DNA of 39,166 nt from Flavobacteriales bacterium. Lineage in GTDB: Bacteria > Bacteroidota > Bacteroidia > Flavobacteriales_D > Sanyastnellaceae. The notes under the pieces are model-generated. The model did not search any database. It was not told the DNA's origin and saw only the letters and a list, made by a program, of their open reading frames with translations. The position numbers and the translations under genes are program-made. Below, one piece after another: positions 3,182 through 28,896 of the stretch. The stretch spans positions 1 through 39,166 of the forward strand of contig JAQWFN010000032.1 of the NCBI GenBank assembly GCA_029238785.1, read 5' to 3'. Every line of letters starts with the position of its first letter. Within the stretch, counting starts at the first letter, position 1.

Positions 3182-6100
3182 ATGCTGAAACGGACATTTA
3201 CACTCGCCCTTTTCTCGCTCATCATTCAAATGAGCTTTGGGCAAATTGTCATCAACGAATTTCTTGTTGATGCGAATACAGTAGAACTCAAAAACCTCGG
3301 AACAGAAGACGTTGACGTGAGCGGATACTTCCTCTGCTCCTTCCCTGCTTATAGCCAAATCGGAAACCTCACACTTTTTGGTGACGATTTTGTGCTTCAA
3401 CCAGGAGAAATCATCGCAGTTGCTGGTCACCCGCTGAGCAATGACGATGAATTGGGACTATATACCCTCCCACAATACACCAATTCAGCGGCCATTATCG
3501 ACTACGTTGAGTGGGGAAGCTCCAATCACCAGAGAGCAATGATTGCACAAAGCGCTGGAATATGGACAGTTGGTCCTTTCCTCCCTACTCCAGAAATTGG
3601 CCAATCTTACGCTTACGATGGCGATGGTGACACGGTGGAGGATTGGTACCAAGCCAACCCCAGTTTTCAAAGCGAAAACCCCGGCGATTGCGGAAATGTT
3701 GGCGGTATAATTAGCACTACTGATCCTACCACCATTTGTGCTGGTGACGGACAAGAAGATCCCATCAACGTGAGCCTCATGGGCAATGTTGGAGCAAACT
3801 CTGCCTGGGTGATTACTGATGCCAATGGAAATATTCTTGGTTTACCAGATGCTCCTCCTTTCGACCTAGAAGCTGCTGGAGAAGGCATCTGCTTGATCTG
3901 GCATATCAGCTATGAAGACGATTTCGAAGGACTAACCCTCGGAAATGGTTTACCCGATTTTGTTGGTTGTTATGAACTCTCAAACCCAATCACCGTGGTA
4001 AGAAACGGCGTTGCTGGTGGAACAATTTCAACAAACGACCCAACGGAAATTTGCGCTGGAGATGGGATGGCCGATCCAATCAACGTCACGCTTTCAGGCA
4101 ATACAGGAGAAAACAGCGCTTGGGTCATCACTGATGAAGCAGGCAATATTTTAGGACTACCACAAGCTCCACCTTTCGACCTTGAAGGCGCTGGAGAAGG
4201 CGTATGCCTGATTTGGCACTTGAGCTTTGCCAACGGTTTAACAGGTGCCGAAGTTGGAATGAATGCTAACGACCTCGAAGGTTGTTTCGATTTATCAAAC
4301 CCAATTAGCGTTACAAGAACTGGAGTTGATGGTGGAACCATTAGCACCAACGACAACACAGAAATCTGCGCTGGCGACGGAATCGATGATAGCATTGAAG
4401 TGATTCTAGGTGGAAACATCGGTCAAAACAGTGCCTGGGTAATTACAGACGAGGCAGGAAACATCCTAGGCTTACCCGAAGGTCCCGTTTTCAACCTCGA
4501 AGGCGCTGGAGAAGGTGTTTGCCTTATCTGGCACCTCAGTTTCGAAGACGGACTATCAGGCGCTGAAGTGGGTATGAACGCCAACGATCTTGAAGGTTGT
4601 TTTGACCTATCCAACCCGATTGCTGTAACAAGAACTGGTGTAGACGGTGGTACAATTGCTACCGATGACAATACCGATGTATGCGTAGGCGACGGTCAAG
4701 AAGCAATCGTAAGCGCTAGCCTCGAAGGTGCTTTAGGACAAAATAGCATTTGGGTATTGACAGATGAAAATGCCACCATTCTTGCGCTTCAAGCGAACGG
4801 GAACTTCGATTTCTCGGGAGCACCAAGCGGTGTTTGCTTGATTTGGCATTTGAGCTTCGAAGACGGACTAGAAGGCGCGATGGAAGGAGCTAACGCCAAT
4901 GATTTGGTGGGCTGTTTCGACCTTTCAAACCCCATTACCGTCAACCGCACGGAAGTGAGTGGAGGAAGTATTTCTACCAACGATCCTTTAGTGATTTGTG
5001 CTGATGACGGTATCGACAATCCGATCGACGTTTCGCTCGAAGGCGAGTTGGGTGCCAACAGTGCTTGGGTGATTACAGATGAAAACGGAGAAATCCTCGG
5101 TTTACCTGCCGCTCCCCCATTCGTGCTCGAAGGCGCTGGAGCTGGAATTTGTTTGATTTGGCACTTGACCTTTGAAGACGGATTAGTAGGAGCCGAAGTA
5201 GGTTTGAACGCCAACGACCTCGAAGGCTGCTTTTCTTTGTCGAATGCATTAGCCGTAACTCGACTAACAGGAGACGATTGCAATTGCGTAGTTGATGGCG
5301 GACTTATTGAGACCGAAGACCCCTTATCTATCTGCGCTGGAGATGGTGAAGCAGACCTCATCAACGTAACTTTAGCCAATGCTACTGGAAGCAATTCAGC
5401 ATGGGTGATTACCGATGTTCAAGGAAATATCTTGGGCTTGCCGACCGGTTCTCCTTTCGATCTTGAAGGAGCAGGCGACGGCGTTTGCTTGATCTGGCAC
5501 TTGAGCTTCGAAGATGGACTCCTGGGAGCCGAAGTAGGCATGAACGCCAACGACCTCGAAGGCTGCTTCGATCTTTCCAATCCAATTGAAGTGGTAAGAA
5601 CAGGCGTAATTGGTGGCGTGCTCAGCACTGAAGACGATACCAATATTTGTGTGGGCGATGGTGAAAGTGATGCCATCGACGTGAACTTAGAAGGAAACTT
5701 TGGTAGCAACTCCGCTTGGGTGATTACCGACGATCTTGGAAACATTCTTGGCCTTCCAAATAACCCTCCTTTCGAATTAGAAGGCGCTGGTGGAGGAATT
5801 TGCTTGATCTGGCACTTGAGCTTTGAAGATGGATTAACAGGCGCCGAAGTAGGCTTGAACGCCAACGATCTCGAGGGCTGCTTCAGTCTTTCGAACCCTA
5901 TAGAAGTGGTCAGAACGGCAATTAACGGCGGTGAAGTAAGCACAACAGACAATGAAACAGAAGTGAGCATTTTTGTGGGTGATGGTTTGGCCGATGTGAT
6001 CGATTTCCAGGTTGAAAACAACGAAGGCACGAACTACACCTACATCGTAACAGATGGCGATGATCAAATTTTGGCCGTACTCGATGGAAATTCAAATGAT

Positions 6101-6511
6101 TTTGAAGACGCTCCAGAAGGTCAATGTCACCTTTGGGGAATGGCGCATGAAGGCGACCTTGTTGTTCCTGAAGCGGGAAGTGTATTTGATATTAGTGCTG
6201 ATGGATGTTACGACTTATCAAGCAACTTTGTCATCATCGATCGCTTAACGATTGGTGTGGATGAATTGGCTTCGCGAAGCGTAAACATCTTCCCAAACCC
6301 GAGCGAAGGCATCGTGAATATCAGCTTTGAGCAAGTTCAAGATTTTACAAGCCTACGTTTAATGAGCGCAAGCGGACAAGTGATTTCAGAGCTTCAACTC
6401 ACGCAAAGCAACACCCAAAAGCTTGATTTAAGCACTTTGGCTGCCGGGACCTACTTTTTGATTTTTGTTGGTGATGATCGCATTGAACACCATCCTCTCC
6501 TAATCAAATAA
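3182..6511 (+). CDS. Giant secreted repeat protein: lamin-tail-like N-terminus, 8 repeats, T9SS tail
   Basis: 1109 residues. A signal peptide (about 1-20, cut before Gln-Ile-Val) is followed by a lamin-tail-like domain (about 22-150, INEFLVD...VELKN, typical of secreted Bacteroidetes proteins). From residue 174 there are eight tandem repeats. Seven have a period of exactly 105 codons or that plus a seven-residue insertion; the eighth is degenerate. Each repeat has a GG-x-IST opening, an ICAGDG motif, an NSAWVITD strand, CLIWHLSF and a GCFDLSNP end, with conserved cysteines that could form one or two disulfides per repeat. The last 85 residues are a T9SS type A sorting domain (FPNPSEG, AAGTYFLIF). 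It is probably a long cell-surface or adhesin-like protein; ligand unknown. It is a single-gene unit with a terminator-like hairpin downstream. Confidence 0.9.
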   Translation: MLKRTFTLALFSLIIQMSFGQIVINEFLVDANTVELKNLGTEDVDVSGYFLCSFPAYSQIGNLTLFGDDFVLQPGEIIAVAGHPLSNDDELGLYTLPQYTNSAAIIDYVEWGSSNHQRAMIAQSAGIWTVGPFLPTPEIGQSYAYDGDGDTVEDWYQANPSFQSENPGDCGNVGGIISTTDPTTICAGDGQEDPINVSLMGNVGANSAWVITDANGNILGLPDAPPFDLEAAGEGICLIWHISYEDDFEGLTLGNGLPDFVGCYELSNPITVVRNGVAGGTISTNDPTEICAGDGMADPINVTLSGNTGENSAWVITDEAGNILGLPQAPPFDLEGAGEGVCLIWHLSFANGLTGAEVGMNANDLEGCFDLSNPISVTRTGVDGGTISTNDNTEICAGDGIDDSIEVILGGNIGQNSAWVITDEAGNILGLPEGPVFNLEGAGEGVCLIWHLSFEDGLSGAEVGMNANDLEGCFDLSNPIAVTRTGVDGGTIATDDNTDVCVGDGQEAIVSASLEGALGQNSIWVLTDENATILALQANGNFDFSGAPSGVCLIWHLSFEDGLEGAMEGANANDLVGCFDLSNPITVNRTEVSGGSISTNDPLVICADDGIDNPIDVSLEGELGANSAWVITDENGEILGLPAAPPFVLEGAGAGICLIWHLTFEDGLVGAEVGLNANDLEGCFSLSNALAVTRLTGDDCNCVVDGGLIETEDPLSICAGDGEADLINVTLANATGSNSAWVITDVQGNILGLPTGSPFDLEGAGDGVCLIWHLSFEDGLLGAEVGMNANDLEGCFDLSNPIEVVRTGVIGGVLSTEDDTNICVGDGESDAIDVNLEGNFGSNSAWVITDDLGNILGLPNNPPFELEGAGGGICLIWHLSFEDGLTGAEVGLNANDLEGCFSLSNPIEVVRTAINGGEVSTTDNETEVSIFVGDGLADVIDFQVENNEGTNYTYIVTDGDDQILAVLDGNSNDFEDAPEGQCHLWGMAHEGDLVVPEAGSVFDISADGCYDLSSNFVIIDRLTIGVDELASRSVNIFPNPSEGIVNISFEQVQDFTSLRLMSASGQVISELQLTQSNTQKLDLSTLAAGTYFLIFVGDDRIEHHPLLIK
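3701..6250 (+). repeat. Eight tandem 315-bp coding repeats
   Basis: Repeat starts, set at the codon pair for Gly-Gly, are 3701, 4016, 4331, 4646, 4961, 5297, 5612 and 5927. All spacings are 315 bases except the fifth unit, which is 336 because seven codons (with two extra Cys) are inserted at its end. Units 2, 3, 6 and 7 are the most alike. Unit 4 has lost part of the motif set, and unit 8 is strongly diverged yet keeps GDG, IVTD and GCYDLS. The near absence of indels suggests duplication by unit-register recombination under structural constraint. Confidence 0.92.
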
Positions 6512-22885: not shown

Positions 22886-23611
22886 ATGAAGAAAGTACTA
22901 CTTCTATTAATAGCTATCCTCAGCATTAACGCAGCAACTGCGCAACGTGATTATGATGACTTACTAGAACTTATCGTAGATGAAAAATACGAGCGCTGCC
23001 TGATTAAAGCAGACAAGTACATTTATGCAGACGATACGAAAAAAGATCCACTCCCATACTTATATTCGGCTATTGCCATGTTTCGTATCAATGCCTCAGA
23101 CGATGAAGCAGTAAAGGAGAAATACCCAAAAGCCTCTAAAGAAGCACTGAAGTTTGCATCAAAGTATGCTAAAAAAGACAAGGAAAGTGAGTTCTATGCA
23201 GAGTTTACCGACTTCTTTGTTGAGTTAAGAGCAGCAACTTATGAAGAAGCTGAAAATTACGATGCTGAAGAAAAATACACCAAATCGAAAGGACTATATA
23301 AATACCTTACAGTTATTGACCCTAACGACCCTGCTGCGGCCATTTATCAAGGATTTACGGAATGGGCTTTGCGTTCAAAAAGAGAAGCTGAAGTTTCGTT
23401 TGAAGCTGCAAAAACCATTTTGAATGAAAAAGGAATCGATCACTTAGAAGACGACCAAGTAAGTCGCTTAAGAATCGGCATTATTATGATTGCTGAATAT
23501 CTTGAAGCAAACGGAGAAAGAACTCTTGCTGTTGAATGGATGAAAATCGGTCAAAAGTACTTTGCTGACAACGACGCATTCAGCATCACTTACAAAGAAA
23601 TTGTAAGATAA
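22886..23611 (+). CDS. Secreted helical (TPR-like) protein of unknown function
   Basis: 241 residues from the ATG at 22886, which gives a clean signal peptide (MKKVLLLLIAILSINAATA-Q). An in-frame codon 30 bases upstream would spoil that. The mature protein is highly charged and helical, with repeated alanine/tyrosine helix pairs (PYLYSAIAMFRI, ALKFASKYAKKDKESEFY, KGLYKYLTVIDPNDPAAAIYQGFTEWAL, LAVEWMKIGQKYF) that look like degenerate TPRs. I do not recognise the family. Periplasmic location is inferred. A -10-like CATATTTG (22851-22858) precedes it, and a strong terminator follows, so it is its own transcription unit. Confidence 0.8.
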   Translation: MKKVLLLLIAILSINAATAQRDYDDLLELIVDEKYERCLIKADKYIYADDTKKDPLPYLYSAIAMFRINASDDEAVKEKYPKASKEALKFASKYAKKDKESEFYAEFTDFFVELRAATYEEAENYDAEEKYTKSKGLYKYLTVIDPNDPAAAIYQGFTEWALRSKREAEVSFEAAKTILNEKGIDHLEDDQVSRLRIGIIMIAEYLEANGERTLAVEWMKIGQKYFADNDAFSITYKEIVR

Positions 23612-23629
23612 TTCCTACAAAAGAATTAG

Positions 23630-23660
23630 AAAAAAGAAGGCCCCGCGCCTTCTTTTTTTT
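23630..23660 (+). terminator. Intrinsic terminator
   Basis: AAAAAAGAAGG (23630-23640) and CCTTCTTTTTTTT (23648-23660) form a perfect stem with a GC-rich seven-base loop and a T-tract. It ends the TPR-like gene and separates it from the signalling genes. Confidence 0.88.
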
Positions 23661-23693
23661 GCTTATTTCGTGAGTCTTACTAACTGCGAGAAA

Positions 23694-24149
23694 ATGACAA
23701 GTTCACCGAAAATACTTTTGATCGAAGACAACGAAGACGATGCAGAACTAACCAAAATCGCCTTAAGAAAAACCAAACGTAACGACTTGGTTTTTTGGGT
23801 GAAAGACGGTGCTGAAGCGCTTGACTTCCTTTTGGGACGAGGCTTATATGAGGCCGAACATTGGAGAGAAGATTTAAAACTCATCTTCCTCGACTTGAAG
23901 CTCCCAAAACAAAATGGCTTTGAAGTACTTGAAGTACTTAAATACACTGTCAATAATTTTGTCATCCCTATTTGTGTATTGACTTCCAGTAATGTTGAAA
24001 GCGATATTGAAAGGGCTTATCAGTTGGGCGCTAATAGTTATATCGTCAAACCAATTGACTTCAAAGAACACCTTGAATCGGTAAACAAAGCTGTTAACTT
24101 TTGGCTGAGATATGCTGACCAACAGAATCACTTAGCCGCAGTATCATGA
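23694..24149 (+). CDS. Stand-alone response regulator (Rcp1-like receiver)
   Basis: 151 residues, a single REC domain and nothing else. The acidic pair is in LIEDNEDDAE, the phospho-acceptor Asp is residue 67 in IFLDLKLP, the Thr/Ser switch is in LTSSN, and the conserved Lys is in IVKPID. The pattern with DDAELTKIAL and the long LVFWVKDGAEALDFLLGRG insert resembles the Rcp1 type that pairs with phytochrome-like or PAS kinases. With no output domain it probably acts as a phospho-carrier or binds a protein partner. The ATG at 23694 is preferred to an in-frame GTG at 23670. The stop overlaps the start of the kinase gene by four bases (ATGA), so the two are co-translated. Confidence 0.9.
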   Translation: MTSSPKILLIEDNEDDAELTKIALRKTKRNDLVFWVKDGAEALDFLLGRGLYEAEHWREDLKLIFLDLKLPKQNGFEVLEVLKYTVNNFVIPICVLTSSNVESDIERAYQLGANSYIVKPIDFKEHLESVNKAVNFWLRYADQQNHLAAVS

Positions 24150-25630
24150 GCAATGATAACAAAGAACAGAACAAGCTAAACCTTCTACTTCTCGAAGATC
24201 TGCAAAGTGATGCGGACATCATTAAACTGCAACTTCGAAAGTATGAACGCGGCATCAATGTTCATCATGTGATGAACAAAGCCGACTTTCTTGCGGCGCT
24301 AGAAAACAATAAATTTGATATCATCATCTCTGACTACTCTTTACCGCAGTATACAGGAATGGAGGCCGTTAAACATGTTAGATTACATTTCGAACACCTT
24401 CCTTTCATCATTTGTACGGGGTCAATGAACGAGGAAACGGCAGTTGCATGCCTAAAAGCAGGTGCAGATGACTATGTGCTCAAGGAAAGTCTTGGAAGGT
24501 TGCCTTCCGCTATTTCGGCGGCCATCGAGGCAAAAAAAGTGTTGTTCGAAAAACAAGAGGCGGAACAAAACCTCATTGCGAGTGAAGAAAACTTCAGAGC
24601 ACTGGCTGAAAATGCTCCTGACAACATCTATAAGATTGAACGTAGTGGTACCATCCTCTACGTAAACAGAGATATTCAAGGCCACACAAAGGAAAGCCTG
24701 ATAGGTGAAAATATCGTTGACTTGGTTAAAGGTCATAATAAAGAGATCTTGTTAAGCAACTTTTCAAAAGCCTTTGATGAAGGAATTAAGATCTCAGTAG
24801 AAATTGAAGGTGATGCATATATCGAGGATGACCAATGGTACTTATGCAGGATCGGTCCAGTGCTTAAAGATGGAAAAGTTGAAAGCTTGATATTTATCCC
24901 AAGCAACATCACTACTCGGAAAAAAGCAGAATTAGAACTGCTCTACCTGAACGAAAAATTATCTCATCTCACTCAACACCTCGAAAATGTGCGCGATGAG
25001 GAAAAAAAGAAAATTGCCATGGAGATTCACGATCAACTCGGTCAAGAACTTACTGGCAATAAACTGGGCCTGTTTTGGATTCAACAACACATCAAACAAA
25101 ATGGTTTAGCTAAAGCCAATGAAGCAGAAGTGCTTGATAAAATTGCATACCTCGTTGACCTCACCACACAAACCATTGAAACAGTTAGAAGAATTGCACA
25201 CGAGTTAAGGCCTGTAGTTCTTGACGACATTGGCCTCATTCCAGCAATAGAATGGCATGTTGAAAACTTCAATAGAAATCACAAGTGCTCCTGTGATTTG
25301 ATTATTGATACTGGAAATTGTATCTTCGATAAAGACCTTTCAACAGCTATATATAGAATTACTCAAGAAGCACTTACCAATATCAACAGGCACGCAAAAG
25401 CATCAAAAGCCAAAGTAGCCTTGTTTACCGACAAAGAGTTCCTCCATCTTAACATCGAAGATAATGGTGTTGGCATCAACAAAGAACTCGCCATGAAATC
25501 AAAAAGTTTAGGTCTCTTTGGTATTCATGAACGTCTGAAAGCGTGGAAAGGTGAAATTGAATTGGACGGCGCTCCTGGGAACGGAACACAAATAAAAATA
25601 CGCATACCTCTCAAAAACCTAACTGTATGA
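24146..25630 (+). CDS. Soluble REC-PAS-HisKA_3 histidine kinase
   Basis: 494 residues with no membrane segment or signal peptide. The domains in order are a receiver (about 10-130, phospho-acceptor D63 in IIISDYSLP), a PAS domain (about 145-265, NFRALAENAPDNIYKIERSG), a HisKA_3 dimerisation helix (about 280-345) with the phosphorylated H295 in IAMEIHDQLGQEL, and an HATPase domain (about 375-492, TQEALTNINRHA, DNGVGI, LGLFGIHERL). HisKA_3 kinases of the NarX/DesK type phosphorylate NarL/FixJ regulators, and one starts within the stop of this gene. An N-terminal receiver lets another kinase or the upstream REC protein tune it. The signal bound by PAS is unknown. Confidence 0.92.
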   Translation: MSNDNKEQNKLNLLLLEDLQSDADIIKLQLRKYERGINVHHVMNKADFLAALENNKFDIIISDYSLPQYTGMEAVKHVRLHFEHLPFIICTGSMNEETAVACLKAGADDYVLKESLGRLPSAISAAIEAKKVLFEKQEAEQNLIASEENFRALAENAPDNIYKIERSGTILYVNRDIQGHTKESLIGENIVDLVKGHNKEILLSNFSKAFDEGIKISVEIEGDAYIEDDQWYLCRIGPVLKDGKVESLIFIPSNITTRKKAELELLYLNEKLSHLTQHLENVRDEEKKKIAMEIHDQLGQELTGNKLGLFWIQQHIKQNGLAKANEAEVLDKIAYLVDLTTQTIETVRRIAHELRPVVLDDIGLIPAIEWHVENFNRNHKCSCDLIIDTGNCIFDKDLSTAIYRITQEALTNINRHAKASKAKVALFTDKEFLHLNIEDNGVGINKELAMKSKSLGLFGIHERLKAWKGEIELDGAPGNGTQIKIRIPLKNLTV

Positions 25631-26265
25631 CCAAAATTGCCATCTGTGACGATCACAAAATAGTTCGAGAAGGACTCAAACAAATCATCAATGGATTTAA
25701 TGACTTTGAAGTTATTCTTGATGTAGAAAGCGGTGAGGCTTTGATTAAAGAGTTGCGTAATTCTGAAGTTGAAATTGTTGTTCTTGACGTTTCTCTTCCA
25801 GGGAGAAATGGATTAGAAGTGTTAAAGCAAATTCGTTCGATGTATGAGCACCTCAAAGTGCTGATGTTGAGCATGTATCCCGAAGATCAATTCGCTATAC
25901 GAGCTTTAAAAGCAGGCGCCTCAGGCTACCTTCACAAAGACTCTCAACCAGACATTCTTGTAGAAGCCCTCAGAACCATTGCCAAAGGAGGAGAATATCT
26001 CAGCCCTGCAATCACTTCTTTGCTCTTTAAAGAAGTGAATTCAGACGGAAACGGTTTGCCTCATAAAATACTTTCTGACAGAGAATACGAAGTGCTCTTA
26101 TACATCGGTGAAGGTAAAAGTATCTCTGAAATTGCTAATCAACTCTCGCTTAGTGTCAAAACCATCAGTACTTATAGAAGTCGGATTCTCGAGAAAATGA
26201 GTTTAGACAACAACTCAGATCTTGTGAAGTACATTCTCATGCACGACCTCGCACCGAGCGTTTAA
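25627..26265 (+). CDS. NarL/FixJ-type response regulator, copy 1
   Basis: 212 residues. Receiver about 1-120, with CDDHKIVREGL, phospho-acceptor D54 in VVLDVSLPG, LSMYPEDQF switch region and HKDS lysine. A linker is followed by a LuxR-type helix-turn-helix (about 145-210) with LSDREYEVLLYIGEGKSISEIANQLSLSVKTISTYRSRILEKM. The ATG overlaps the kinase stop (ATGA), so it is the cognate regulator of that kinase by operon logic. It should bind DNA as a dimer after phosphorylation. A near-duplicate follows 116 bases downstream. Confidence 0.93.
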   Translation: MTKIAICDDHKIVREGLKQIINGFNDFEVILDVESGEALIKELRNSEVEIVVLDVSLPGRNGLEVLKQIRSMYEHLKVLMLSMYPEDQFAIRALKAGASGYLHKDSQPDILVEALRTIAKGGEYLSPAITSLLFKEVNSDGNGLPHKILSDREYEVLLYIGEGKSISEIANQLSLSVKTISTYRSRILEKMSLDNNSDLVKYILMHDLAPSV

Positions 26266-26343
26266 TATTACTGCTCTGAAGTGTGGGAAATGTCCTACGC
26301 ATCCCTCAGCGGCAATCCTATAAGGCTGACAGCAAGAGTAACA

Positions 26344-26351
26344 TACATTTG
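26344..26351 (+). promoter_or_regulatory. -10 box of the second regulator
   Basis: TACATTTG is a perfect TAnnTTTG match, 30 bases ahead of the ATG at 26382. It suggests that the second NarL-type gene can be transcribed apart from the kinase operon. No clear -33 TTG. Confidence 0.45.
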
Positions 26352-26381
26352 GCTTAACGAAAACAATTAAAATACTAAGCC

Positions 26382-27023
26382 ATGATACAAGTTGTACTCT
26401 GTGATGACCACAAAATAGTTCGTGATGGACTAAGTAAAATTATTGGAAGCTTTAACGACATCGACGTCATCGCAGACGACATTGCGAGTGGTGAAGAGTT
26501 GTTGCAGCGACTTAGAAAAACTCAGCCTGATGTTATCATTCTTGACGTTTCATTGCCTGGAAGAAGCGGACTAGAGGTGTTAAAACAAATCAAAATCTTC
26601 TATCCAGACATTAAAGTGCTTGTTTTGAGTATGTATCCTGAAGATCAATTCGCCATTCGCATGCTAAAAGCTGGTGCGTCTGGATACCTTCACAAAGATT
26701 CTGCTCCAGAAGTACTTATTGAAGCAATCAGAACAATTCAAAATGGCGGTGAGTACCTTTCACCTCAAATCACCAAATTGCTCTATAGAGAAATGAACAA
26801 CAAAAATCAGGACTTGCCACACAAGCAATTGTCTGATCGCGAATTCGAAGTATTCTTGGCTATTGGCGAAGGAAAAGCAAACAATCAGATTGCCAACCAA
26901 TTGTCTTTAAGTGCGAAAACCATTTCTACATACCGTTCAAGAATCCTAACTAAGATGACCATGGATAACAATTCAGAAATTATCAAGTACATTCTCTTGC
27001 ACAACCTTATTCCCTCTGCATAA
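26382..27023 (+). CDS. NarL/FixJ-type response regulator, copy 2
   Basis: 213 residues and, by eye, identical to copy 1 at most positions through both domains. It has CDDHKIVRDGL, phospho-acceptor D55 in IILDVSLPG, the same LSMYPEDQFAIR and GASGYLHKDS stretches, and a LuxR-type HTH with LSDREFEVFLAIGEGKANNQIANQLSLSAKTISTYRSRIL. Differences cluster in the linker and at the start of the HTH. The shared kinase-facing surface suggests both copies receive phosphate from the same kinase, while DNA targets may differ. It is a tandem duplication with its own likely promoter. Confidence 0.93.
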   Translation: MIQVVLCDDHKIVRDGLSKIIGSFNDIDVIADDIASGEELLQRLRKTQPDVIILDVSLPGRSGLEVLKQIKIFYPDIKVLVLSMYPEDQFAIRMLKAGASGYLHKDSAPEVLIEAIRTIQNGGEYLSPQITKLLYREMNNKNQDLPHKQLSDREFEVFLAIGEGKANNQIANQLSLSAKTISTYRSRILTKMTMDNNSEIIKYILLHNLIPSA

Positions 27024-27044
27024 ACTTGCCTTGTAAGCTATTTC

Positions 27045-27106
27045 TTCAGGCACCTCAGTACTATATCCTACAGCTCAATGAGGTGCCTGAATTACAATGG
27101 CACCTC
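27045..27106 (+). promoter_or_regulatory. Alternative-hairpin RNA element ahead of the REC-SpoIIE gene
   Basis: TTCAGGCACCTCA (27045-27057) and TGAGGTGCCTGAA (27079-27091) form a perfect 13-bp stem with a 21-base loop. The same central GAGGTGCC (27080-27087) can instead pair with a second copy of GGCACCTC at 27099-27106 (11-base loop). The two structures exclude each other. No T-tract follows the first stem, so it is a weak candidate for a plain terminator. It may be an attenuator or a protein-binding leader. Confidence 0.45.
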
Positions 27107-27159
27107 CCCGTCTATTGTATTTTTACAGCGTTCGGTATGTACCTAACTTTTGCCCTATA

Positions 27160-28896
27160 ATGAATTACGATACTCCACTCAAAGTTCTTCTTCTGGAAGA
27201 CTATGACCTCGACGCCGAAATGGTTAAGAGTCAGCTTAAACGTGTTCACCCAAACTGGGAAGTGGAACATGTTACGAATAAAACTGACTTCGAAAAGTTT
27301 CTTGTGAATAGTCATCCAGACATCATCTTGAGCGATTATAACATGCCGAGCTATAATGGTATGGAAGCCTTCCTCACAGTGAAAGGACTAAATCTTCAAA
27401 TTCCATTTATTATTGTTACAGGTGAACTCCCTGAAGAAGTTGCCATCGAATGCATTAAAGAAGGCGTTGATGATTATATCATTAAGAACTCCTTACTACG
27501 CTTAAATGTAGCTATTCAAAAGGCATTGGAAAAACGTATAATCTCAAACAACCTCGAAGTAAGCCAACACAGATATCATCAGATTTTTCAAAACGCAGGA
27601 GTTGCAATTGCCGCCTTCCAAGCTCCGCTAATGATGAGCAGGTTCATTGACAATTTGAACAAAAAGGGAAGTAAGGAAATCTCGGTCAAGGACTTACAAA
27701 AGGTATTACAATTGCTTACGATGATAGATGCAAATAAGCATGCTCTCAAACTTTTTAAGGCCAAAAACCTTGAAGATCTCAAAAGCAATTTCCTCTCGCT
27801 TTTTAGTAAGGACGTCTATCAATGGATGGAACAATGCCTTCTAAAATACGGTCAAGAAACTGAAATCGAATCCGTGGTAAAAGCCCGAACCCTTGAAGGA
27901 AGTCACCTCTATTTAAGAATGACGATGTCTTTTGACCCCAGCGATCCTGAAAGATTTAACGTGAGTATGGTTGACCTCACCAAAATGCGCGAATCAGAGC
28001 AGCGATTAACGAAGGTGATGCAACGCCTAGAGTCTACCGTCGAACATCGCACAAAAGCGCTGACACAACTGAATATTAAACTGCAAAACCAAGCTCAAGA
28101 CCGTGAGCGAATTAATGGCGTTTTAAGAGATAACTACATTCAAATGACCGAGAGCATTATTGCTGCAAAACGCATTCAGCAATTAATGCTTCCCAAAATT
28201 CGAGATATTGCTAATGCCTTCGAAGATGCCTTCGTGTACCTTCGTCCAAAAGATATTGTTAGTGGCGACTTTTACTGGTTTCACCGCACCGAAACTAAAG
28301 CTTGGATTGCTTGTGTTGATTGTACTGGGCATGGAGTACCAGGGGCTTTCATGTCGATGATAGGATCTAAAATCTTGAACCGAATTATCATTGAAGATTG
28401 TGTTGAAGATACCGCTCAAATCTTGAATAATGTTGACGACTACATCGTAAAAGAGCTAAAACAACACGATACAGAAACACAAGTCAGCACAGGCATGGAC
28501 ATCTCCCTATGCTGTGTTGATTTCGAAGCCAATACCGTTCAGTTCTCAGGAGCATTTCAAAACCTATACTGCTTTCAAAGCGGTGAACTAAAGATGATAA
28601 AAGGTGATCGTTTCTCTATTGGAGGTACCTTCAAAATCGAGAACAAAACCTATGCTTCTACAACACTTCAGCTTTCTAAAGGCGACACATTCTATTTACT
28701 TTCAGACGGTTATGCTGATCAATTTGGCGGACCACAAAATAAGAAGTTCACACGTAAAAGATGGATTGAAGAACTTGAAGCGGCTCAAGGCATGAGTATG
28801 TATGAACAAGAAATGAAGCTAAAAAGTGCGCTCCAAGATTGGAAAAGTACCAATGAACAAGTAGACGACATCCTTGTGATGGGCATGCGGCTTTAA
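27160..28896 (+). CDS. REC-SpoIIE (PP2C-type) phosphatase
   Basis: 578 residues from ATG 27160; in-frame ATG 27097 would add an atypical 21-residue lead lying in the RNA element. The N-terminal receiver (about 6-125, phospho-acceptor D59 in IILSDYNMP) closely resembles the receiver of the kinase at 24146. A degenerate PAS-like region (about 135-280) and a coiled coil (about 285-350) follow. The SpoIIE/PP2C phosphatase (about 350-578) shows the metal-binding acids D370 (SGDF), D387 (DCTGHG), D516 (SDGYAD) and D569-D570 (VDDILV). Such enzymes dephosphorylate anti-sigma-factor antagonists or signalling proteins in partner switching. No anti-sigma or STAS gene is in the window. It ends in the stop codon of the convergent gene. 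Confidence 0.9.
   Translation: MNYDTPLKVLLLEDYDLDAEMVKSQLKRVHPNWEVEHVTNKTDFEKFLVNSHPDIILSDYNMPSYNGMEAFLTVKGLNLQIPFIIVTGELPEEVAIECIKEGVDDYIIKNSLLRLNVAIQKALEKRIISNNLEVSQHRYHQIFQNAGVAIAAFQAPLMMSRFIDNLNKKGSKEISVKDLQKVLQLLTMIDANKHALKLFKAKNLEDLKSNFLSLFSKDVYQWMEQCLLKYGQETEIESVVKARTLEGSHLYLRMTMSFDPSDPERFNVSMVDLTKMRESEQRLTKVMQRLESTVEHRTKALTQLNIKLQNQAQDRERINGVLRDNYIQMTESIIAAKRIQQLMLPKIRDIANAFEDAFVYLRPKDIVSGDFYWFHRTETKAWIACVDCTGHGVPGAFMSMIGSKILNRIIIEDCVEDTAQILNNVDDYIVKELKQHDTETQVSTGMDISLCCVDFEANTVQFSGAFQNLYCFQSGELKMIKGDRFSIGGTFKIENKTYASTTLQLSKGDTFYLLSDGYADQFGGPQNKKFTRKRWIEELEAAQGMSMYEQEMKLKSALQDWKSTNEQVDDILVMGMRL

Follow-up and report, generated by a model that had tools for sequence, protein, structure and literature searches.

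A conserved five-gene signalling block of flavobacterial genomes that probably links histidine-kinase signalling to a SiaA-like Ser/Thr phosphatase switch

Results and discussion

The first 39,166 nt of contig JAQWFN010000032.1 ('the window' below) carry five signalling genes in a row at positions 23694-28896, all of them intact, co-oriented open reading frames by the ORF list and Pfam, as a preliminary description of this DNA had reported. They encode a stand-alone receiver (RR1), a histidine kinase (HK), two NarL-type regulators (NL1 and NL2) and a receiver-bearing SpoIIE/PP2C phosphatase (PP). These genes form one conserved unit, because their order recurs across six genera and is absent as a whole from 11 of 20 further sites, and the block probably links histidine-kinase signalling to a Ser/Thr phosphatase switch. 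The wiring that we favour, tentatively and with a little less than even confidence, is that of a two-output unit, in which HK would act on NL1 and NL2, the SiaA-like PP would act on an antagonist, and a kinase encoded elsewhere (locus B) would feed the receivers of PP and RR1.

Anatomy of the block

The features of the block and its upstream flank are:

22889..23611, + strand: 'up', 240 aa, no Pfam match; conserved neighbour with a hydrophobic N-terminus
23627..23661, + strand: terminator-like hairpin between 'up' and RR1 (15-pair stem, then a T-rich tail)
23694..24149, + strand: RR1, stand-alone receiver, 151 aa (Pfam Response_reg, 58.7 bits)
24146..25630, + strand: HK, soluble REC-PAS-HisKA_3-HATPase_c kinase, 494 aa (Pfam Response_reg, PAS_4, HisKA_3 and HATPase_c; His295 with DxxxQ)
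25627..26265, + strand: NL1, NarL/FixJ-type regulator (Pfam Response_reg and GerE)
26382..27023, + strand: NL2, second NarL-type regulator (Pfam Response_reg and GerE)
27045..27091, no strand assigned: inverted repeat between NL2 and PP, 13 bp perfect with a 21-nt loop (sequence comparison)
27160..28896, + strand: PP, REC - PAS-like - coiled-coil-like linker - SpoIIE/PP2C phosphatase, 578 aa (Pfam Response_reg and SpoIIE)
27184..27489, + strand: PP receiver domain (Pfam), with the phospho-Asp59 codon at 27334-27336
27532..28020, + strand: PP middle, PAS-like, no Pfam match, boundaries approximate (hhalign homology to the locus-B kinase middle)
28294..28890, + strand: PP SpoIIE/PP2C catalytic domain (PF07228; SiaA model, 201.8 bits)

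In the window, 4-nt overlaps join RR1 to HK and HK to NL1, and a gap of 136 nt that holds the inverted repeat lies 5' of PP. The start of PP is probably at 27160, because the first start of the same-genus orthologue falls at the equivalent place. The receiver residues are present in the block proteins of the window. The inverted repeat was rejected as a conserved regulatory site, as the best stems of 10 relatives measure 4-11 bp and the sequence is not conserved; a promoter scan was uninformative (13 hits observed, 13.2 expected by chance). The protein of 'up' is likely secreted and its gene probably separate from the block: it stands 5' of every one of the 11 full blocks and of the genes at two loci of the outgroup family f5 (L110 and L111), and is still in place at all 11 block-less loci.

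Conservation and distribution

Gene order, which the preliminary description had left to be checked, is conserved: RR1-HK-NL1-NL2-PP occurs in 11 of 114 family genomes, from six genera, and in every one of the 11 family genomes that have a full-length PP. With the order kept in 11 genomes, the arrangement is not due to chance. RR1 is found in all of these full loci, its phospho-Asp kept in each (11/11). One full block (G048) has a stop inside NL1, and in another (G043) a stop was flagged within the HK match, yet the locus holds a 502-aa open frame. A protein-level scan of a set of genome contigs gave one locus, that of the same-genus relative. Twenty further loci were examined at this site: the block is missing from 11, HK-NL-PP is present in seven, all of genus g20, and two end at a contig edge. 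In a tree of the neighbouring helicase, the genera with a full block do not form a single clade: g9, which has it, clusters at support 1.0 with g11 and g12, which have no block, and with g7 and g8, whose site is unreadable at a contig edge. Under vertical descent, this tree of a single gene would imply at least two losses of the whole block.

The phosphatase and its receiver

The catalytic domain of PP is SiaA-like as judged from its sequence. Among solved structures its best match is 6k4e (E 2.3e-33), which we take to be SiaA-PP2C, and PP has a PP2C domain of SiaA type, including the conserved Asp residues; the seven phosphatase Asp positions are kept in 11/11 full-block and 7/7 g20 sequences. 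PP is nonetheless no SiaA equivalog, as its score of 201.8 bits with NF038263 falls below the curated cut-off of 700 and its match spans only model residues 281-578, i.e. the phosphatase half and linker. Nor is it a member of the Pseudomonas RssB equivalog NF045505 (64.6 bits, cut-off 700). The SiaA model recognises five of the six SpoIIE proteins of the genome at E <= 1e-8; the phosphatase on C75 falls short.

All 11 full-block genomes join an intact receiver, with E13, D14, D59, T87 and K109 kept, to an intact SpoIIE/PP2C domain. That the PP and HK receivers are closely related, as had been proposed, is borne out by their 47% identity. A recent duplication of the HK receiver into PP is neither claimed nor rejected, as the receiver tree, which took in 18 of the fetched phylum loci, does not resolve the two as sisters. 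In that tree the receivers of PP, of RR1 and of locus B each form a clade of their own, as do those of the PAS-bearing HK; the PP receiver groups with Bacteroidota receivers, among them the HK-type ones, and apart from those of locus B and RR1, which we count against our proposal.

The middle domain of PP aligns with that of the locus-B kinase at E 2.3e-19 and with the PAS domain of HK at E 0.0044 (hhalign). Among 399 genomes of the order, 11 have a full-length match to the receiver-PAS-like half of PP (E <= 1e-40), as do two of 326 genomes of the phylum (E <= 1e-30), all within the window's own family; other matches to this half are mostly to the receiver alone, G428 (positions 4-293 of 329) being an exception. 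An AlphaFold model of PP built from two sequences was unusable (pLDDT 44.9).

The loci of g20 retain HK-NL-PP and lack RR1 (seven loci, with HK in pieces at L130). Their PP receiver has lost D14, D59, T87 and K109 in 7/7 and E13 in 6/7, and HK and NL still adjoin the PP with this dead receiver. The homology of the PP and locus-B middles is established for the full-block PP only, the g20 middle giving no clear match (E 0.0031).

Histidine kinase, NarL regulators and locus B

HK is soluble, as had been described: it has no membrane-like stretch, the highest 19-residue Kyte-Doolittle mean being 1.03. It has the marks of a HisKA_3-NarL two-component kinase, namely the HisKA_3 His, DxxxQ, the HATPase domain and an adjacent NarL regulator with an intact receiver, and the His and DxxxQ motif are kept in 11/11 full-block genomes (alignments used six of the seven g20 HK proteins, leaving out that of L130). 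There are two HisKA_3 matches in the source genome. NL1 and NL2, called near-identical in the preliminary description, are 66% identical; NL2 is the most conserved block protein (84-97% identity in 10 relatives). A tree of the NarL regulators, which included three of the seven g20 proteins and left out the interrupted NL1 of G048, placed the single NL of f5 and that of g20 with low support. Available text on HisKA_3 kinases, among them DesK and NarX, has them partner NarL-type regulators (PMC5231405). Because HisKA_3 partners are of this type and only NL1 and NL2 are of that kind in the block, HK is paired here with these two, which it fits by family and position, and phosphotransfer to them is predicted.

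For RR1 and PP, the stronger candidate appears to be the unlinked locus-B kinase of the source genome, a Cph1-like REC-PAS-like-HisKA protein. Locus B also encodes a short HisKA kinase. We prefer the Cph1-like kinase because it co-occurs with the PAS-bearing HK in 12 genomes, is related to the f5 kinase and has a half in common with PP. The 12, out of 114 family genomes (>=214 bits), are the 11 full-block genomes and G001, and the same 12 are the family genomes that matched the HK model at E <= 1e-90, in a search that sampled 399 genomes of the order rather than every family genome. This co-occurrence is confounded by relatedness and genome size; full-block genomes measure 2.6-4.6 Mb and many other family genomes are smaller. 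The locus-B kinase is, in its C-terminal half, a relative of the kinase beside RR1 in f5, and its N-terminal REC-PAS-like half is homologous to that of PP. At the two f5 loci, which lack PP, RR1 directly follows a Cph1-like PAS-PAS-HisKA kinase with Pfam PAS domains and no phytochrome chromophore domain, whose strongest matches in family f1 are the locus-B kinases. RR1-like receivers adjoin HisKA-type kinases in G025 and G026 too; in the full-block genomes, RR1 and the Cph1-like HisKA kinase co-occur unlinked only. G001 has HK-NL1-NL2 and locus B without RR1 and PP, which also counts against our proposal, and G002, of the same genus and 99% complete, has neither HK nor locus B. Because g20 has no strong locus-B match and its HK receiver keeps the Asp, some other donor would have to serve the HK receiver there.

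Partner-switch proteins

No anti-sigma gene was found among the 30 Pfam-scanned ORFs of the window (the other listed ORFs, mostly antisense, were left out), in line with the preliminary description. The same 30 ORFs include no siaB, siaC or siaD, so that PP does not stand in a SiaABCD operon. The genome-wide search that had been suggested did find partner-switch proteins away from the window: the source genome has two SiaC matches (C95 and C55), three matches to the SiaB-type DUF6272 in two proteins, three STAS matches (one apparently within a 533-aa transporter-like protein, from a reading of its sequence) and 11 HATPase_c_2 matches, one of which is a stand-alone RsbW-like ATPase. The substrate of PP is ambiguous, because the genome holds six SpoIIE phosphatases and several SiaB, SiaC, STAS and RsbW proteins. 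Of the 114 family genomes, 101 have SiaC and 110 have SiaB-type domains; with these common in the family and PP being SiaA-like, the suggested tie between two-component signalling and Ser/Thr phosphatase partner switching is plausible.

A proposed wiring and its alternatives

In the two-output wiring, HK would phosphorylate NL1 and NL2, giving a transcriptional output, and would also dephosphorylate them through its DxxxQ motif, as family, overlap and conservation suggest. PP would be a SiaA-like Ser/Thr phosphatase gated by its N-terminal receiver and PAS-like domain via the coiled-coil linker; its most likely substrate would be an antagonist of SiaC or STAS type whose gene lies elsewhere, with a kinase of SiaB or RsbW type working in the opposite direction. 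PP may take its input from a second kinase, encoded elsewhere in the genome, and not from the adjacent HK: the locus-B kinase would feed PP and RR1 through their receivers, and perhaps HK through its N-terminal one, one input leading to a NarL branch and a partner-switch branch. More speculative, and in our judgement rather doubtful, is the extension that the locus-B kinase and PP, unlinked and co-inherited, have one receiver-plus-PAS-like input half in common. A single signal would then set, in parallel, His-Asp transcription (HK-NL1/NL2) and Ser/Thr switching (PP), and after loss of the kinase locus the PP receiver would decay to a phosphorylation-dead form while the catalytic domain survives.

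The preliminary description had one kinase phosphorylating four receivers. HK as a single hub for RR1, NL1, NL2 and PP agrees with the adjacency and common orientation of the five genes in 11/11 full loci, the 4-nt overlaps of RR1/HK and HK/NL1, the 47% identity of the HK and PP receivers and a block that is whole or absent at most sites read, but we regard it as quite improbable: only NL1 and NL2 are NarL-type partners of a HisKA_3 kinase, g20 keeps HK, NL and PP while the PP phospho-Asp is gone in 7/7, RR1 sits behind a Cph1-like HisKA kinase at the two f5 loci, RR1-like receivers lie beside HisKA-type kinases in G025 and G026, and the receivers of PP and RR1 share only 20-32% identity with those of NL1 and NL2, in short alignments. 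Another reading, unlikely to our minds, makes PP and RR1 passengers beside an ordinary HK-NL two-component system, with PP independently regulated at the same site. The absence of RR1 and PP along with HK-NL at all 11 readable block-less sites speaks against it, as do the matching position of PP in two distinct lineages, the full-block one and g20, and a PP middle domain common to a kinase that co-occurs with HK; yet HK-NL is the sole part common to all versions (full, g20, G001 and f5), PP has its own upstream gap with the inverted repeat and persists in g20 without a working receiver, and the occurrence of RR1 is independent of that of PP (of the two, f5 has RR1 alone and g20 PP alone).

PP could also control a classical RsbW/RsbV-type anti-sigma switch rather than SiaB/SiaC. 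The genome does hold the stand-alone RsbW-like ATPase (C97) and small STAS proteins (C102 and C35), but their genes lie on contigs apart from each other and from PP, so that neighbourhood gives no favour, and the SiaA model gives PP 201.8 bits but does not reach E 1e-8 with the C75 phosphatase; we consider this switch improbable for PP.

Relation to known systems

The preliminary description knew of no described system with this set. The five-gene set was indeed not found in the open PubMed Central literature, but a histidine kinase acting on a REC-PP2C phosphatase is known from RsfS-RsfR (PMC10950880) and partner switching from HsbR and CrsR (PMC6482189), as the available parts of these sources describe; what is new is this gene set, and the input half shared by a kinase and a phosphatase. 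In Mycobacterium smegmatis, by the same partial text, RsfS phosphorylates RsfR, which acts on an anti-sigma antagonist and whose phosphatase activity is lowered by phosphorylation (PMC10950880). As in the block, two-component and partner-switch signalling are thereby linked; that system consists of a single kinase, which senses through an extracellular domain, and a single REC-PP2C protein, and the text at hand mentions neither NarL regulators nor a stand-alone receiver (PMC10950880). PP differs from RsfR in its extra PAS-like domain and its SiaA-like catalytic domain. HsbR and CrsR have a REC-PP2C make-up and are fed by an HptB phosphorelay, and we know of no neighbouring HisKA_3-NarL pair or PAS-like domain in HsbR-HsbA and CrsR-CrsA. 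In these Pseudomonas and Shewanella systems a response regulator uses partner switching to act on an anti-sigma antagonist, as far as the available text goes (PMC6482189), a role akin to that proposed here for PP. The likeness to SiaABCD of Pseudomonas aeruginosa (PMC7647112, seen in part) lies in the phosphatase half of PP and in the SiaB- and SiaC-type proteins of the source genome. The N-terminus of PP is REC-PAS-like, unlike that of SiaA, and SiaB and SiaC are here unlinked to PP. SiaA carries an N-terminal membrane/HAMP sensor. The receiver Rcp1 goes with the kinase Cph1, and f5, where the RR1-type receiver follows a HisKA kinase, resembles this pair; the f5 kinase differs in having PAS and no chromophore domain, and in the window's family the kinase is absent from the locus. 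HK-NL1/NL2, with HisKA_3 and DxxxQ beside NarL-type regulators, resembles DesK-DesR and NarX-NarL as described in the accessible text (PMC5231405); unlike DesK and NarX, HK is soluble, has its own N-terminal receiver and PAS domain, and adjoins two paralogous regulators.

In the open PubMed Central literature we found no paper pairing 'DUF1987' or 'SiaC family regulatory phosphoprotein' with 'Bacteroidetes'. In the block, flavobacteria would offer a concrete example of a conserved gene cluster that joins two-component signalling to partner switching of the SiaA-like kind. Modular exchange between PPM phosphatases and histidine kinases has been proposed, according to the available part of the source (PMC12143880), and the common input half of kinase and phosphatase, if true, would be a natural example of it. 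The natural series of f5, full block, G001, g20 and empty site makes the kinase-receiver wiring testable against evolutionary loss.

Organization of the block

Five genes, all in the same orientation, occupy positions 23694-28896 of the window.

Genes of the block in order, with domains by Pfam for HK, NL1, NL2 and PP
RR1: stand-alone receiver; 151 aa
HK: REC-PAS_4-HisKA_3-HATPase_c; 494 aa
NL1: receiver and GerE; 212 aa
NL2: receiver and GerE; 213 aa
PP: receiver and SpoIIE; 578 aa, counted from the ATG at 27160

The receiver and catalytic residues of the block proteins are intact, and no membrane-like stretch was found in the window's HK protein. The genes overlap by 4 nt at RR1/HK and at HK/NL1, while gaps of 116 and 136 nt separate NL1 from NL2 and NL2 from PP. 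The regulators NL1 and NL2, called near-identical in the preliminary description, are 66% identical; the receivers of HK and PP are 47% identical. A terminator-like hairpin lies between RR1 and the gene 5' of the block ('up', 22889-23611), whose likely secreted product of 240 aa has no Pfam match. This gene also adjoins the block in the outgroup family f5 (L110, L111), where the other flank is different, and remains at sites without the block. The NL2-PP gap holds an inverted repeat (27045-27091) with perfect 13-bp arms, a 21-nt loop and no T-run; some relatives have stems of up to 11 bp there, the sequence itself not being conserved. Two further window proteins carry type IX secretion C-terminal sorting domains, one below the Pfam cut-off (616-1539) and one clear (3182-6511).

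Conservation, variants and probable loss

Among the genomes compared, mostly drafts, full-length PP orthologues were present in 11 of the 114 from the window's own family (f1). All 11 share the order DEAD helicase - up - RR1 - HK - NL1 - NL2 - PP - FemAB-like - glycosyltransferase, so the five-gene order seen in the window is indeed conserved. The NL1 gene of genome G048 (L046, 9980-10612) has a single in-frame stop, due either to an error in sequencing or to recent pseudogene formation; in G043 a stop was flagged inside the HK match, yet an open frame of 502 aa is present at the locus.

The same site was read in 20 further f1 genomes. Eleven have no RR1, HK, NL1 or PP match there, seven, all of genus g20, carry HK-NL-PP without RR1 (with HK in pieces at L130), and in two the site runs into a contig edge. 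In a tree of the helicase, a single gene neighbouring the block, the full-block genus g9 grouped with the block-less g11 and g12 and the contig-edge g7 and g8 (support 1.0), and g20 with the block-less g13, g17 and g18. Since g9 groups with block-less genera, the full-block genera are not one clade in this one-gene tree and, given vertical descent, the whole block was therefore lost at least twice.

The f5 locus (L110, L111) reads up - PAS-PAS-HisKA kinase - RR1 - HK - single NL, and that of the f1 genome G001 up - HK - NL1 - NL2. The constant core is HK-NL; RR1, NL2 and PP are variable. With 84-97% identity, NL2 (26382-27023; L043-L052) is conserved more strongly than any other gene of the block and than the helicase next to it (56-80%), as might be expected of a core regulator.

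We found no published description of this gene set in open PubMed Central papers, and to that extent the earlier statement that no such system is described stands. However, RsfS-RsfR is a known case of a REC-PP2C phosphatase targeted by a histidine kinase (PMC10950880, in excerpt), and HsbR and CrsR act through partner switching (PMC6482189, in excerpt). Input-domain exchange between PPM phosphatases and histidine kinases via coiled-coil linkers has been proposed (PMC12143880, in excerpt). All functional readings of the block are ones that we infer.

Candidate phosphate donors

HisKA_3 kinases, DesK and NarX among them, pair with regulators of the NarL type (PMC5231405, in excerpt), and the window's genome has two HisKA_3 matches. 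HK keeps its His and DxxxQ in all 11 full-block genomes, and NL1 and NL2 are nearly identical in the first-helix and SMYPEDQFAIR segments. The conservative reading is that HK would phosphorylate NL1 and NL2.

In g20, the middle domain and linker still identify PP (hhalign E 5.9e-16), and the seven phosphatase Asp positions are kept in 7/7 genomes. Of five receiver positions, D14, D59, T87 and K109 are gone in all seven and E13 in six; the alignment is weak in this region, where the g20 protein has no match left to the receiver of PP (E 0.15). HK and NL remain there nonetheless. A receiver needed only for phosphate from HK should not decay where HK persists, so the evidence on PP's donor points away from HK, and from the earlier suggestion of one kinase for four receivers. 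Receivers without the Asp are a recognized class (PMC4395418; PMC12632262, both in excerpt).

Another candidate donor lies at an unlinked locus (locus B) with a Cph1-like kinase of about 720-777 aa (n = 12); in the window's genome Pfam finds receiver, HisKA, HATPase_c and a sub-threshold GAF. Within f1, the RR1-adjacent kinase of f5 is matched best (at least 214 bits) in 12 of the 114 genomes, namely the 11 with the full block and G001. These are also the 12 f1 genomes that gave a match to the PAS-bearing HK (E <= 1e-90) in a search of a sample of the order that covered part of f1. The next-best scores, 192 (G026) and 185 bits (G025), come from another kind of locus, where an RR1-like receiver adjoins a HisKA-type kinase. 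A related arrangement at a different site, with a large REC-kinase in addition, occurs in genus g8 (L177 1-4062; L178 1-9000). A short receiver and short HisKA kinase precede the locus-B kinase in 9/12 (by similarity; Pfam was run for L173), the short kinase without the short receiver is seen in G045 (contig start) and G001, and in the window's genome the locus is cut off by the contig end. On the opposite side a gene of 558-603 aa adjoins in 12/12.

The middle part of full-block PP, a region with no Pfam match, is homologous to the middle of the locus-B kinase (E 2.3e-19, receivers excluded). From this homology and the co-occurrence, we propose that the locus-B kinase may be the donor for RR1 and PP. 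PP's middle has no clear homology to the HK PAS (E 0.0044). At the thresholds used, HK and the locus-B kinase are both missing from G002, a 99% complete genome from the genus of G001. Against the proposal, the co-occurrence is confounded by relatedness and genome size, and a tree of receivers places that of PP among HK-type and other Bacteroidota sequences rather than with those of locus B. Moreover, the g20 PP middle gives no clear match to the locus-B middle (E 0.0031), G001 carries locus B without RR1 or PP, and g20, which lacks a strong match to locus B, keeps the Asp of the HK receiver in the six sequences aligned. A 520-aa frame from a different family in the phylum (G428:C1:3931607-3932512) matches the receiver and PAS-like half of PP (positions 4-293 of 329).

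The phosphatase and its possible substrates

Phosphorylation of the RsfR receiver lowers phosphatase activity (PMC10950880, in excerpt). We found no published description of SiaC/DUF1987 with Bacteroidetes in open PubMed Central papers. The SiaA model is matched (E <= 1e-8) by five of the six SpoIIE proteins of the window's genome, the exception being on contig C75. The closest solved relative of PP is 6k4e, a 'putative serine phosphatase' (E 2.3e-33), which we take to be SiaA-PP2C.

A genome-wide search did recover potential partners: SiaC on contigs C95 and C55, SiaB-type proteins on C95 (tandem) and C79, small STAS proteins on C102 and C35, and an RsbW-like ATPase on C97. At L164 (15261-16754), a locus of the window's genome, SiaC lies directly 3' of a protein with two tandem DUF6272 (SiaB-type) domains. 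Across f1, 101 of the 114 genomes have SiaC and 110 have SiaB-type domains. As a first guess, the substrate of PP would be a SiaC-type protein, with a STAS protein as second choice.
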